DNA of 64,000 nucleotides, taken from contig QHBT01000018.1 in the NCBI GenBank assembly GCA_003244185.1, positions 1 to 64,000 of the forward strand. Reading direction: 5' to 3'. Of the stretch, positions 12,079-22,081 are shown one piece after another. The stretch is from Candidatus Dormiibacter spiritus (GTDB lineage: Bacteria; Chloroflexota; Dormibacteria; Dormibacterales; Dormibacteraceae). The position numbers and the translations under genes are program-made. Position 1 is the stretch's first letter. Every line of letters begins with the position of its first letter. Under the pieces are notes generated by a model. That model searched no databases and was not told the origin of the DNA. It saw only the letters and a list, made by a program, of their open reading frames with translations.

Positions 12079-12693
12079 TCAGTAGGTTCGGACCAGCCCC
12101 TTGACCGCTCCGACCATCTCCACGTGGCCGGGTTCGATGGGCGCGTAAGCGTCGTTCTCGGCGAGCAGCCGAACTCGACCCCGCGACCGATCCAAGCGCT
12201 TGACCGTGGCTTCGTCCTCGACCAGAGCCACGATGATCGTTCCGTCAGGGGCATCCTTCTGCGGCTTCACGATCACCAGATCCTCGGGCAGGATGCCTGC
12301 GTTGATCATGGAATCGCCCCTGACGCGCAGGGCGAACCAGCCCTCCTGGGCCAGCCCGGGCGAGAGCAGAACATGGTCTTCGATGTTCTGTTCGGCCAGG
12401 ATGGGCACGCCGGCAGCCACGCTGCCCACTATCGGCAGAGCTATGGCGTTGCGCCGCTGCTCCTCTTGCGGGGCCTCCGCGACGAGCTGCACGGTTCTCG
12501 ACTTGCTCGCATCGCGGCGGATGAGGCCGCGCCGCTCGAGCTGGTTCAAGTGGTTGTGCACTGTGGAGCTGGAGGAGAGGCCAACGGCCTCGCCGATCTC
12601 CCGGACGCTGGGGGGATAGTTCCGAGCGCGGGTTACCTGCCTGATGTAGGTCAGGATCTTTTCCTGCCGCTCACTGACTGGTGATTCGTTCAC
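12079..12693 (-). CDS. lexA: SOS repressor LexA
   Basis: LexA (204 residues) has the N-terminal winged helix (SVREIGEAVGLSSSSTVHNHLNQLERRGLI), a cleavage site in GSVAAGVPI (Ala-Gly), and the catalytic dyad Ser in RGDSMINAGI and Lys in DEATVKRLDR. The start is GTG 12693 with ACGAGG ahead of it. It is transcribed away from the LysM gene at 12839, and the shared region carries three LexA-box-like sequences including one overlapping its own -35 region, so autoregulation is expected. The recognition helix agrees with the CGAAC-N4-GTTCG boxes seen nearby. Confidence 0.97.
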   Translation of the reverse strand: MNESPVSERQEKILTYIRQVTRARNYPPSVREIGEAVGLSSSSTVHNHLNQLERRGLIRRDASKSRTVQLVAEAPQEEQRRNAIALPIVGSVAAGVPILAEQNIEDHVLLSPGLAQEGWFALRVRGDSMINAGILPEDLVIVKPQKDAPDGTIIVALVEDEATVKRLDRSRGRVRLLAENDAYAPIEPGHVEMVGAVKGLVRTY

Positions 12694-12746: not shown

Positions 12747-12786
12747 ATCCTAGCAGCTTTCGGCTCTGAAAGCAAACCTTTGTTCG
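12747..12786 (-). promoter_or_regulatory. lexA promoter with imperfect LexA box
   Basis: On the minus strand there is a -35 TTGCTT (12775-12770) and a -10 TAGGAT (12752-12747) separated by 17 bases. A LexA-box-like sequence, CAAAC-CTTT-GTTCG on the plus strand (12773-12786), differs from CGAAC-N4-GTTCG at one base and overlaps the -35. A leader of about 45 bases with a ribosome site follows. This fits weak autorepression of lexA; inference from position and sequence. Confidence 0.7.
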
Positions 12787-12799
12787 GCAGGCCCCGTGC

Positions 12800-12845
12800 T
12801 TGACATCGAACGGGTGTTCGCTATACTGAGACGAACATATGTACG
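12800..12845 (+). promoter_or_regulatory. SOS promoter of the LysM gene with two LexA boxes
   Basis: A near-consensus promoter, TTGACA (12800-12805) and TATACT (12822-12827) with a 16-base spacer, contains a perfect LexA box CGAAC-GGGT-GTTCG at 12807-12820 between the hexamers. A second box, CGAAC-ATAT-GTACG (12832-12845, one mismatch), spans the expected transcription start and the ATG at 12839. The predicted RNA would have a leader of only about five bases. The arrangement predicts tight repression and strong SOS induction. Confidence 0.85.
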
Positions 12846-13150
12846 CGCCAGCTTGCGACTACGCACTGAAGCGACCACGCCCGAGCCACACGAGTCAGGT
12901 TCACCGCTTGGCCATCGGTCTCGCGCTCCTCTGCCTGCTCACCTTTGTTTTGGCCCGCTCAGCCTTCGGCGGCGCGCCAGGCGCCTATGAGACGGTCACC
13001 GTCCAGCCGGGGGACACCGTTTGGAGCATTGCCGCTGAGCACTATCCCCAGAGCGACACCCGGGTCAAGGTGGATGAGATCGAGCGCGACAACTCTCTTT
13101 TCGGGCCTGAGCTGCACCCAGGTCAGCGGCTGAAGCTGCCCACCAGCTGA
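12839..13150 (+). CDS. SOS-induced LysM membrane protein, YneA/DivS/ChiZ-like cell division inhibitor
   Basis: A 103-residue protein with a short cytoplasmic N-terminus, one membrane segment (about residues 24-44, LAIGLALLCLLTFVLARSAF) and a C-terminal LysM domain (YETVTVQPGDTVWSIAAEHY to LHPGQRLKLPTS). The size, topology, divergent position next to lexA and LexA-box promoter are those of YneA (Bacillus), DivS (Corynebacterium) and ChiZ (Mycobacterium), which halt septation during DNA damage. Those families are not clearly homologous outside LysM, so the role is inferred from context. The ATG at 12839 is close to the predicted transcription start. Confidence 0.82.
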   Translation: MYAPACDYALKRPRPSHTSQVHRLAIGLALLCLLTFVLARSAFGGAPGAYETVTVQPGDTVWSIAAEHYPQSDTRVKVDEIERDNSLFGPELHPGQRLKLPTS

Positions 13151-13197
13151 GCCTGCCATCGAGGGACGCCCAACTCCCTTGCCTTAGGCTCTTCTCG

Positions 13198-13422
13198 ATG
13201 CGAGTACAGCTGGTCGGTCGGAAGGACTGTCACCTATGCGGCGAGGCTGCTGCCGCACTGCGGTCCCTTGGCACCGCGTTGGAAGAGCTCGACGTCGCCG
13301 CCGACCCTGAGCTGTTCAGGCTGTATGACTTCCGGGTGCCGGTGCTGCTCATCGATGGTCGGGTGGTGGGGGAGGGACGCCTGACAGAAGCCTCGCTGCG
13401 CACACTTCTGGCGCGCGGCTGA
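13198..13422 (+). CDS. Glutaredoxin-like thioredoxin-fold protein
   Basis: A 74-residue protein with the redox motif CHLC near residue 11 (GRKDCHLCGEA), a cis-Pro strand in YDFRVPVLLIDGRVVGEG and a final helix. This is the DUF836/NrdH-like glutaredoxin pattern. A TAGGCT hexamer at 13185-13190 lies seven bases before the ATG, suggesting a leaderless transcript. No partner enzyme is adjacent, so its substrate is unknown. Confidence 0.8.
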   Translation: MRVQLVGRKDCHLCGEAAAALRSLGTALEELDVAADPELFRLYDFRVPVLLIDGRVVGEGRLTEASLRTLLARG

Positions 13423-18778: not shown

Positions 18779-19354
18779 GTGAGCGGTGCCGCGCAGAGCC
18801 AGATCATCGGCCTGCTGATGATGGTCTTCTTCATGGGCATCGGGCTACGCCGGCGGATGCGGCCCCAGCCGGTCAGGCCCGGTCGGATAGCTGTTTCGGG
18901 CCTCATCATCGTTCTGCTGCTGGGCAGCAGCCTTGCCTTCACCGGCTCCCGGATCCTCTCTGATACCTGGGCGCTGCTCCTGGCTCCTGTGTTTTTGGTC
19001 ATTGGCGGGGCCGTCGGCTGGTATCTGGTCAGGACCATGAAGTTTTGGACCGACCCCGGCACCGGCGCCCTCTGGATGCAGGGAGGCGTTCTCTTCGCCC
19101 TGATCCTGCTGGGCACTATCGCTCTTCGCTTCGGCGCCCGGGCTCTGCTGACCGGCAACGCCTTCAGCGGTGGCTACGGCAGCAACCCGTACAGCGCCAC
19201 CGGCTACTCGGGCCCGCATGGGTTCCTCTACGACCTGTCCGCCGACTTCCTATTCCTCAGCCTCGGCCTTTGGGCGGCACGTGCCGGCTCCCTTCTGCTC
19301 CGGTACAGAGGGCACACAGCTGCCAACGCCCCGGCAGGAATCGAAAGCACTTAA
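18779..19354 (+). CDS. CcdC-like membrane protein (DUF1453 type)
   Basis: GTG 18779 begins a 191-residue protein with about five membrane segments (SQIIGLLMMVFFMGIGLRRR, ISGLIIVLLLG-like, LLAPVFLVIGGAVGWYLVR, WMQGGVLFALILLG, FLFLSLGLWAARAGSLLL). The order VGWYLVRTMKFWTD followed by a gain of aromatic loops resembles CcdC-like proteins. A TAGACT hexamer (18766-18771) lies seven bases before the start, another leaderless-type promoter. Function unknown. Confidence 0.65.
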   Translation: MSGAAQSQIIGLLMMVFFMGIGLRRRMRPQPVRPGRIAVSGLIIVLLLGSSLAFTGSRILSDTWALLLAPVFLVIGGAVGWYLVRTMKFWTDPGTGALWMQGGVLFALILLGTIALRFGARALLTGNAFSGGYGSNPYSATGYSGPHGFLYDLSADFLFLSLGLWAARAGSLLLRYRGHTAANAPAGIEST

Positions 19355-19589
19355 GTCAGGACTTGCTTTCTCGCCGGAGCCTTGCGTTTCGGCGGCTCCG
19401 GGCCGCCGAACCTGTTCCCACTGCACCACTGCCGGCCGGGCGGCAAAGCGAGATTGCGGTGGGGAACGGAACCGGAAGCAAGCACGAATCGGAGACACAG
19501 GTTGCTAACGATAATGACCGTTTACCGTAGCAGTAGAGCGAGGCCAAGCGTGCTCGGGACTGGGCGGAAGCCAAGCCTGGAGTGGCCGA

Positions 19590-19793
19590 TCAGTGGCGGT
19601 GGGCACCGGAAAGCCAGCGAAGCGCGGGGATCTTTCTGGCCCAGCCGGGCAGTTCCGGTGCATCCGGCCGAGGCGGCGCGCCGGCCGGAGTGGATTCGGC
19701 GCCGTTGTCTTCAAGGATCAGTCGGGCAACGTCGTTGGCCGGCCTCGACCCGTCAGCCAGCGCCGGAACCGGGTTTGGCACCGCCAGCAGCAC
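19590..19793 (-). CDS. Small hypothetical protein, second gene of an SOS-type unit
   Basis: GTG 19793 lies ten bases after the stop of the preceding gene (19803) and opens a 67-residue frame ending at TGA 19590-19592. It is Pro/Ala-rich with no motif I recognise (ILEDNGAESTPAGAPP in the middle). Codon use is typical for the window. It is listed because it is close-spaced behind a LexA-controlled gene; it could equally be non-coding. The 235 bases from 19355 to 19589 beyond it hold no gene I can support, only a 7-bp GC hairpin at 19390-19408. Confidence 0.35.
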   Translation of the reverse strand: MLLAVPNPVPALADGSRPANDVARLILEDNGAESTPAGAPPRPDAPELPGWARKIPALRWLSGAHRH

Positions 19794-19802
19794 CCCCAGC
19801 TG

Positions 19803-20210
19803 TCAGGCCGGTCGCCTGAGAGGCGTCTCTGCCACTTTCAACCAGGCCCGCATTGTATCCGGCTGTGTGCTCTCGAGGCCTCGGAGCAGCAGCAGCAGCG
19901 ATACGCAAGACTCCCGGAAGTCCGCGTCGAGCAGCAGCGGGTCCGCAGCCGGCTGCTCCAAGCTGACGCAAGGCCCAGCCAGCTCGCTGATCGATCGCGT
20001 CACTCGGCTGCGCAGCGGTCCGAGATCAGTGCCGGCGCGCGCCACTTCGGCCCGCCAGGACTCCTGCACATCGGCGACTGCCTTCAGCAGTTTGCGAACC
20101 GCTGCCGACGCCAGCCGCGGATCGGTGCCCGGCGCGGCCAAGCGCTCTGCCAGCTCGCCGTGGAGCCGGAGCAGTCGCTGCAGACGGAGCTGGGTCATCA
20201 GCGTGTGCAT
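19803..20210 (-). CDS. Unknown all-helical protein under a LexA-type promoter
   Basis: A 135-residue protein predicted almost wholly helical and rich in Leu, Arg and Ala (for example LLRLHGELAERLAA and VSLLLLLRGLESTQP). I recognise no family. The ATG at 20210 coincides with the transcription start expected from the promoter at 20217-20245, whose spacer holds a perfect LexA box; the mRNA would be leaderless. This predicts induction by DNA damage, in the same manner as the LysM gene at 12839. Candidate roles such as a damage-checkpoint or repair accessory are speculation. Confidence 0.65.
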   Translation of the reverse strand: MHTLMTQLRLQRLLRLHGELAERLAAPGTDPRLASAAVRKLLKAVADVQESWRAEVARAGTDLGPLRSRVTRSISELAGPCVSLEQPAADPLLLDADFRESCVSLLLLLRGLESTQPDTMRAWLKVAETPLRRPA

Positions 20211-20216
20211 GCTTCC

Positions 20217-20245
20217 AGCCTAGACGAACATGCGTTCGCTGTCAA
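20217..20245 (-). promoter_or_regulatory. LexA-controlled promoter
   Basis: Minus strand: -35 TTGACA (20245-20240), 17-base spacer, -10 TAGGCT (20222-20217). A perfect box CGAAC-ATGC-GTTCG lies in the spacer at 20225-20238, exactly the geometry seen in front of the LysM gene. The -35 overlaps the end of the tetR gene. Expected transcription start is about 20210, the A of the ATG. Confidence 0.82.
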
Positions 20246-20883
20246 GACCCGAATCGGCGTTCTCCAGGCTTCCGACCACCGCTGCCGAAGACCAGACCCA
20301 GCTGCTCCGCCAGGCGGGCCGGGTCGACGCTTCCTCCCTCTCTCAGCGCGGCTCCCACGACCTCGTTGACGGCTCCCACCACGGCTCGGGACCAAACGGT
20401 GGCGTCGACCGCTTGGAAGTCACCCGCGGCGCGGCCGCGCCGCACCTCTTCTTCGACCAATGCGGCGAAGGCGGCATGCAGCGTTGCTCTTACAGTCTCG
20501 ATCTCCGCCGCGAGACCTACCGACTCGACCAGGAGCAGGCGCGCGACCGCCGCCCGTCGGAAGCAGGCGGCCACGAAGCCGTGAATGCCCGCCGCGATCT
20601 TGGCCCGATGGTCCCCCCCACTCCGCAGTGCAGCTTCCTGGGCGGCCGCCAGGAGCTGGCCGCCCTCCTGCTCCAAGAGAACGCGAAAGCAGTGCTCTTT
20701 GGAGCCGAAGCTGGCGTAGAAGGCGCTCTTCGACGTTCGGGCGGCGGCCACCACCTGGTCCACAGACGTCTCATGGAAGCCCTGGCCGGCAAAGAGCGCC
20801 AGGGCCGCTGCCAGCAGGCGCTGGTGACGGTCCTGGCGCCGCTGGGAGAGGCGCGGGGCGGCCGGGGCACGGCCGCTGAGCAC
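20242..20883 (-). CDS. TetR family transcriptional regulator
   Basis: From GTG 20883 the protein has 213 residues. The N-terminal helix-turn-helix reads ALALFAGQGFHETSVDQVVAAARTSKSAFYASFGSKEHCF, a standard TetR domain; the rest is the helical ligand domain. A longer reading from 20985 overlaps the acyl-CoA dehydrogenase gene and lacks family support; GTG 20883 lies five bases after that gene's stop, so the two form an operon. The palindrome at 22111-22132 upstream of the pair is its likely operator. By context the ligand may be an acyl-CoA. Confidence 0.88.
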   Translation of the reverse strand: MLSGRAPAAPRLSQRRQDRHQRLLAAALALFAGQGFHETSVDQVVAAARTSKSAFYASFGSKEHCFRVLLEQEGGQLLAAAQEAALRSGGDHRAKIAAGIHGFVAACFRRAAVARLLLVESVGLAAEIETVRATLHAAFAALVEEEVRRGRAAGDFQAVDATVWSRAVVGAVNEVVGAALREGGSVDPARLAEQLGLVFGSGGRKPGERRFGS

Positions 20884-20887
20884 TATC

Positions 20888-22081
20888 TCAAATCCCTGCC
20901 AGCGTCCGGCTGATGACCACCCGTTGAATCTCGGAAGTCCCCTCGAAGATGGTGTAGATCTTGGCGTCACGGTGCCATTTCTCAACCGGAAAGTCGCGGA
21001 TGTAGCCGTAGCCGCCGCAGATCTGGATCGCCTCGTCGGTCACCTTGACGGCGACTTCACTCGCCTTGAGCTTGGCCATCGAGCCTTCGGCGTGCTCAAA
21101 GCGAGCTTCGTTCTTGCCTTCCCAGAGAGCGCGCCAGATGAGTCCCCGGGCTGCCTCGATCTCCAGCGCCATGTCAGCGAGTTTGAAGGCGATGGCCTGG
21201 TTGTCGATCAGCGGGCGGCCGAACTGCCTGCGCTCCTTCGCGTATCGCAGTGCAAATTCGAATGCCGCCCGAGCCACGCCGAGGGCCTGGGCGCCCACTA
21301 TCGGCCGGGTGGTCTCGAAGGTCTTCATGGCCACGTTGGAGCGAGAGGAGACGCCCTCCCGAGCGCGCCGCAGCCGCGCCTCCAAGCGATCTTCGCCGCC
21401 CAGCAGGCAGTCGGTCGGGACGCGGACGTCATCGAGCAGGACCTCTGCTGTATGCGAGGCGCGGATCCCCATCTTCTTTTCCTTCTTGCCCTGGCGCAGA
21501 CCTGGCGTGGCCTTGGGGACGACGAAGGAGGCGTGACCGCGGCTGCCGAGTGCCGGGTCCACGCTGGCGACCACAACGTGGACGTCGGCTATGCCACCGT
21601 TGGTGATGAACACCTTCTGCCCGTTCAGCACCCAGTCGCCGTTCTGCTTCACAGCTCGCGACTTGTAGGCGCCGACGTCTGAGCCGGCGTCCGCCTCGGT
21701 TGCGCAGAATGCACCCAGGGCAGGCTCGCGGGCGCTGCCGTAACAGGCGGGAATCCAGGTTGCGATCTGCTCAGGTGTGCCCTGAGCGAAGATCGCGGCC
21801 ACCGGCAGCCCGGTGCCCTGGATGGCCAGGGCAATGCCCGCGCAGCCCCAGCACAGCTCCTCCGCCACGATCGCCGGCAGGATCCCTGTCTCATCCTGGA
21901 AGCCCTGGAAGATGAATTCCGGCGAGTAGATGCCCAGATCGGCCGCCTTGCGCACCACGTCCCACGGGAATTCCTCAGTCTCGTCGTAGTGAGGCGCCAC
22001 CGGCCGGATCTCCTTCTCGGCGAACTGGTGCACCCAGTCGCGCATCTCGCGCTGCTCTTCCGTCAGTTGAAAGGAGATCAT
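20888..22081 (-). CDS. Acyl-CoA dehydrogenase
   Basis: From ATG 22081 (MISFQLTEEQREMRDWVHQFAEKE) the protein has 397 residues, the normal length for the medium/short-chain acyl-CoA dehydrogenase family. FAD and substrate motifs include AFCATEADAGSDVGA, VFITNGGIADV, KMGIRASHTAEVLLDDVRVP, YAKERRQFGRPL and the catalytic-base region YTIFEGTSEIQ. An upstream extension to 22249 has no family support. It precedes the TetR gene, and a 22-bp palindrome sits 30 bases upstream of its start. Substrate chain type is not determined. Confidence 0.93.
   Translation of the reverse strand: MISFQLTEEQREMRDWVHQFAEKEIRPVAPHYDETEEFPWDVVRKAADLGIYSPEFIFQGFQDETGILPAIVAEELCWGCAGIALAIQGTGLPVAAIFAQGTPEQIATWIPACYGSAREPALGAFCATEADAGSDVGAYKSRAVKQNGDWVLNGQKVFITNGGIADVHVVVASVDPALGSRGHASFVVPKATPGLRQGKKEKKMGIRASHTAEVLLDDVRVPTDCLLGGEDRLEARLRRAREGVSSRSNVAMKTFETTRPIVGAQALGVARAAFEFALRYAKERRQFGRPLIDNQAIAFKLADMALEIEAARGLIWRALWEGKNEARFEHAEGSMAKLKASEVAVKVTDEAIQICGGYGYIRDFPVEKWHRDAKIYTIFEGTSEIQRVVISRTLAGI

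Follow-up and report, generated by a model that had tools for sequence, protein, structure and literature searches.

Genes and operators around P135

The window, i.e., the whole 64,000-nucleotide stretch of Candidatus Dormiibacter spiritus DNA that was analysed, carries on its minus strand a gene for a small helical protein, here called P135. It lies directly downstream of a gene for a TetR-family regulator and on the same contig as lexA and a gene for a YneA-like LysM protein. The features on which the following analysis is based are, with matches to protein family models in parentheses:

19803..20210, minus strand: P135, very probably an SOS gene, encoding a 135-aa protein of a new family with a predicted four-helix bundle (homologues, dN/dS, AF2 model)
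20240..20245, minus strand: –35 element TTGACA (sequence), overlapping the stop codon of the upstream TetR gene
20225..20238, minus strand: putative LexA operator CGAACGCATGTTCG in the P135 promoter spacer, a perfect palindrome
20217..20222, minus strand: –10 element TAGGCT (sequence), 6 bases 5′ of the ATG
20242..20985, minus strand: TetR-family regulator (Pfam TetR_N, 1.3e-13; synteny)
19590..19793, minus strand: 67-residue frame, not a gene
12079..12693, minus strand: lexA (window ORF; linkage with P135 conserved in relatives)
12773..12786, plus strand: third lexA/LysM operator, one mismatch; CAAACCTTTGTTCG is common to several relatives
12807..12820, plus strand: LexA operator of the LysM promoter, perfect
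12832..12845, plus strand: second operator over the LysM start codon, CGAACATATGTACG, one mismatch
12839..13150, plus strand: YneA-like LysM SOS gene, divergent from lexA (Pfam LysM, 2.3e-10; NCBIfam YneA, 1.9e-11, below the model cutoff)
13153..13377, plus strand: glutaredoxin-like gene (Pfam Glrx-like, 2.2e-11)

Wherever the contig is long enough, the relatives show a conserved gene order: an acyl-CoA dehydrogenase (ACAD) gene, the TetR gene and P135 in one direction, the glutaredoxin-like and LysM genes convergent to them, then lexA and hflX. In Dormiibacter, a lineage-specific block puts about 7 kb between P135 and lexA. In the other families of the class, lexA and LysM are retained together with their boxes, and P135 is absent. 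The true start of the TetR gene is probably located further in than the start of its open reading frame. The LysM and glutaredoxin-like genes (12839-13377) appear to form an operon that is probably LexA-controlled; glutaredoxin, whose gene is kept throughout the family, is an uncommon partner in an SOS operon.

The first-pass annotation had described P135 and the trailing 67-residue frame as a gene pair. The latter is an open reading frame and, as had been stated, matches no family (Pfam, NCBIfam), but it is non-coding: directly 3′ of the P135 stop codon, the alignment with the sister species breaks into frameshifting indels that disrupt the frame, and no homologue of it was found in 18 other loci. 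The locus therefore contains one gene instead of two. Further downstream, about 100 intergenic bases (19420-19520) are nearly identical in two Dormiibacter species, while the adjoining stretch has diverged. The conserved stretch might belong to the gene at 18779-19354, as a regulatory sequence or as an RNA element; it matches no Rfam family, and a single sub-threshold match to an RNA element was taken as chance.

The P135 promoter and LexA operators in the genome

Read on the minus strand from 20245 to 20208, the P135 promoter has the order TTGACA-GCGAACGCATGTTCGTC-TAGGCT-GGAAGC-ATG. The 17-base spacer (20239-20223) holds a perfect CGAAC-N4-GTTCG palindrome (20238-20225), so that the operator overlaps the promoter, and the spacing between TTGACA and TAGGCT is as first described. 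The accompanying claim that this arrangement is exactly as at the LysM gene has to be softened to a close match, since the LysM promoter reads TTGACA-N16-TATACT and its spacer is 16 bases long. The start codon (20210-20208) had been placed at the expected transcription start, and indeed the A of the ATG lies 7 bases beyond the –10 element, which makes a leaderless start plausible; the P135 mRNA is likely leaderless.

The expectation that homologues would also be preceded by LexA boxes was borne out. Among the 28 homologues with enough upstream sequence, representing about 13 genera, 27 carry a perfect box 14-20 bases 5′ of the ATG; one additional locus shows a box with one mismatch. When the sequences are aligned on the box, none of its ten specified bases varies, a –35 TTG is conserved at the equivalent place (1.3-1.6 bits), and a TA-rich –10 element is present as well, whereas bases 9-22 upstream are nearly random (0-0.4 bits). 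All perfect boxes within 229 kb around 19 homologues are located either at the P135 promoter or between lexA and LysM, and three other palindromes of the same shape, used as control, do not occur there at all. A scan of the window itself revealed two perfect boxes, the one in the P135 promoter and the one at 12807 between lexA and LysM, and seven matches with at most one mismatch (2.4 expected); the whole genome contains 18 perfect sites, compared with five for a reversed control pattern.

Could the box nevertheless be fortuitous and P135 not regulated by LexA? Its loss in one genus (g12, see below) and the position of some perfect boxes inside genes elsewhere in the genome would agree with this view. 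It is strongly disfavoured, and we regard it as very improbable, by the conservation of a perfect box in nearly all relatives examined, always in the promoter spacer and next to almost random sequence, as well as by the restriction of perfect boxes to SOS promoters in the 229 kb. A cognate LexA and a recA gene carrying an equal operator (CGAACGCCTGTTCG) are both encoded in the genome. Judged from these sequence features, P135 is almost certainly under LexA (SOS) control.

Apart from recA, boxes are found in this genome 5′ of uvrB, imuA-imuB-dnaE2, a gene for an MrfA-type helicase, three DUF222-HNH genes and a 109-aa orphan, and these genes plausibly constitute a working SOS regulon. Several other genomic boxes lie inside genes and may be chance sites. 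The helicase gene (L001:1491-3746, on G000:C3) has its LexA box in the promoter, which suggests that a mitomycin-repair helicase is under SOS control. At the orphan gene (L015:2671-3000; G000:C61:11073-11399), a perfect box is located just before the ATG. Within the class, a copy was otherwise found in G014 alone; this orphan is a possible second, sporadically distributed and undescribed SOS gene.

A second putative operator lies over the start codon of P135 in most relatives, where the gene starts with CGAAC-ATG-CGTACG (CGAACATGCGTACG), a box with one mismatch. CGAAC directly precedes the ATG in 17 genomes, and the Arg2 codon is CGT in 23 of 25 related sequences, compared with only 5.6% of the other Arg codons of these genes; given the shared ancestry of the sequences, a binomial value for this bias should not be read as a true probability. 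In both the window species and its sister this second site has been lost at P135, the sequences being GAAGC-ATGC-ACACG and AGAGC-ATGC-ACACG, respectively. At the LysM start (CGAACNNATGTACG), an equivalent DNA site is present with the ATG shifted two bases on (CGAAC-NN-ATG-TACG). Of the 17 relatives with an identified LysM gene start, 15 have this site and two have a CAAAC variant. As the reading register shifts from gene to gene and the site persists, the constraint acts on the DNA. The three DUF222-HNH (13E12-type) genes carry a perfect box across the ATG (CGAACATGGGTTCG; L002:3049, L004:3013 and L008:3055 on G000 contigs C7, C19 and C37), so that LexA would cover their start codons. With operators embracing the start codon, one sees clearly how the sequence of an operator constrains the N-terminus of a protein.

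The first-pass annotation had named loss of the box in relatives as an observation that would refute its proposal. Outside genus g12 the operator is kept at the P135 orthologues, but the canonical upstream box is absent from both g12 genomes (L126, G012:C277; L046, G021:C186), of which G021 retains the start-codon operator. The lexA promoter of G012 contains only a one-mismatch box (L111, G012:C116), and both its P135 and lexA promoters share an AAC-N4-GTGCT site. LexA of g12 shows one substitution near the recognition helix, and canonical boxes are fewer. Drift of LexA specificity in this genus is possible.

Distribution and predicted structure of the P135 family

Profile searches of 110 genomes of the class identified P135 homologues in 36 of 42 Dormibacteraceae genomes and in none of the 68 others; a search with a single sequence recovered homologues in 32 of 61 relatives. 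All named copies belong to Candidatus Dormiibacterota, family Candidatus Dormibacteraceae, the closest being that of Ca. Dormiibacter inghamiae. The misses in the remaining six genomes of the family are compatible with poor assembly or nearby contig ends: lexA lies near a contig end in G017, G022 and G035, no lexA match was found in G015 and G106 either, and G013 is only 59% complete. Marginal matches elsewhere in the phylum lie inside longer frames and were judged chance, and a mobile origin was rejected, as plasmids, phages and viral contigs gave no match.

Between the window and its sister species, the P135 proteins are 97% identical. The genes differ at 35 bases, 29 of them at third positions, without any indel, and the resulting dN/dS of about 0.04 (0.014/0.336) indicates that P135 is under strong purifying selection. 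Taken together, P135 very probably represents a genuine, lineage-specific and previously unannotated SOS gene family confined to the Dormibacteraceae, which are uncultured soil bacteria. Since the gene is kept beside lexA and has a LexA site in its promoter, it is very probably an SOS component. This agrees with the original proposal of an undescribed SOS component under a LexA promoter, as do the conservation of the box across genera and the lack of a match in the protein family libraries.

The product had been described as 135 helical residues matching no known family. The open reading frame is exact, a helical bundle is predicted, and searches of Pfam, NCBIfam, PHROGs and PADLOC with 1-28 members, including the HMM search that had been suggested, returned no family and scattered weak matches only. 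No toxin or defence-system family, LysM domain or similarity to RecX, DinI and PsiB models was detected, nor was a SulA domain (Pfam) found in any of the 28 members at E≤1. P135 shows no obvious membrane segment and is predicted to be a soluble helical bundle. Two AlphaFold (AF2) models of different members (pLDDT 90; pTM 0.81 and 0.84) both predict four helices packed as a bundle; the longer copy of the window has an additional helix at its C-terminus. Foldseek comparisons of the two independent models with the PDB, and of one with viral models, gave nothing at E≤0.001; the best candidates (E about 0.05-0.14) were helical bundles of a generic kind, among them talin and chemoreceptor sensor domains, and were not accepted as relatives.

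Sequence conservation is concentrated in the N-terminal helix (invariant L4, L10, R12 and R15; motif TLxTQxxLRRLxR) and the fourth helix (invariant L105 and R110; motif PLxxFLRGL), and W52 is also invariant. The final residue is always Ala, although the length of the linker in front of it differs by up to about 14 residues, and the tails read RSA, RTA, KTA, KSA, RPA or LAA. In both models the lowest confidence falls on the tail (pLDDT 47-62 in a 121-aa member). The invariant terminal Ala may point to a C-terminal degron.

Possible functions of P135 and comparison with known SOS systems

With moderate confidence, we propose that P135 is a LexA-repressed, short-lived cytosolic effector that inhibits the cell cycle as a damage checkpoint alongside the LysM protein of YneA type. 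From what is established about LexA, the repressor on the P135 operator would block RNA polymerase in the undamaged cell. DNA damage would trigger RecA-driven self-cleavage of LexA, and a probably leaderless P135 mRNA would be made. The protein might then bind a partner via its conserved N-terminal and fourth helices and hold back cell-cycle progress, either division or replication, during repair. Afterwards, a Clp- or Lon-type protease might read the flexible, invariantly Ala-ending tail and remove it. P135 would thereby be the cytosolic counterpart of the neighboring YneA-like inhibitor. A growth-inhibitory product fits the double-operator repression and the possible rapid turnover. The searches gave no sequence or structural relative of known function; it is position, regulation and the tail that point to this role. 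What speaks against it is that the second operator is missing in the window species and the canonical box in g12, and that P135 has no obvious membrane segment, while most known SOS division inhibitors of Gram-positive-type bacteria are membrane proteins.

The main rival explanation, which we consider possible but doubtful, is that P135 is not a cell-cycle inhibitor but an SOS-controlled accessory of recombination or mutagenesis, acting on RecA filaments or the ImuA-ImuB-DnaE2 mutasome. SOS-controlled recA and imuA-imuB-dnaE2 genes are present in the genome, SOS genes elsewhere (DinI, RecX, PsiB, ImuA) act on RecA or the mutasome, and contacts with DNA or RecA are conceivable for the conserved, basic helix at the N-terminus. 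However, an ImuA-like protein is found class-wide (107 of 110 genomes, a count that includes RecA matches) and P135 in one family only, so that the two show no special co-occurrence, and G012 possesses P135 without a detectable ImuA match. The genome also encodes a separate RecX downstream of recA, and P135 does not resemble the RecX, DinI or PsiB models; the idea that P135 is itself RecX was rejected, and the Pfam RecX model gave no match.

A further reading, rather unlikely in our judgment, sees P135 as a regulator or adaptor that is induced by stress, acts on a different target (transcription, proteolysis, the nucleoid or a partner of the antitoxin type) and came under LexA control by recruitment within this family. 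The family-specific origin, the generic helical bundle and the strongly conserved N- and C-terminal faces would suit such a protein, but there is no conserved operon partner, the neighbors being the ACAD/TetR genes upstream and the convergent glutaredoxin-LysM unit, and toxin and defence-system matches are missing.

Returning to the checkpoint inhibitor, one may tentatively go further. P135 could found a new, non-homologous class of SOS checkpoint effectors, in which a four-helix bundle that is cytosolic and protease-labile would work in tandem with an envelope inhibitor of the LysM/YneA type encoded at the lexA locus. The checkpoint would then have two arms, and start-codon operators on leaderless mRNAs would serve as a second lock.

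Apart from the repair enzymes, SOS effectors change rapidly in evolution, and most are not related from one phylum to another. Our literature searches turned up no publication on the SOS response of Dormibacterota; the present results provide a concrete SOS regulon for this phylum and a near-universal, family-specific gene tied to lexA. With a conserved soluble SOS effector beside a YneA-like gene, a new checkpoint inhibitor becomes directly testable.

By analogy to SulA, the FtsZ inhibitor of enterobacteria, P135 is predicted to be cytosolic and SOS-controlled with a possibly protease-labile C-terminus, but it is an all-alpha bundle without a SulA Pfam match. It shares small size and SOS control with RecX and DinI, and RecX is likewise all-helical, but the long-helix bundle topology of P135 differs and neither protein's models match. 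Like LexA-controlled genes with Gram-positive/actinobacterial-type boxes (CGAAC-N4-GTTCG), P135 is linked to lexA and has an identical spacer operator, which also occurs at the recA, uvrB, imuA and DUF222-HNH genes of the genome. The differences are that this protein family was found in none of the described SOS regulons known to us, and that the P135 genes of the relatives have a second operator over the start codon. With the division inhibitors of the YneA and SosA type (YneA, PMC13396833; SosA, PMC6851548), P135 shares the features of a small, SOS-only gene near lexA, with a tight double operator in most relatives and a possible C-terminal turnover signal. YneA of Bacillus blocks septal wall synthesis through FtsW (PMC13396833). 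P135 differs from it in lacking a LysM domain and any obvious membrane segment, and the YneA-like gene of this locus is the adjacent LysM gene.
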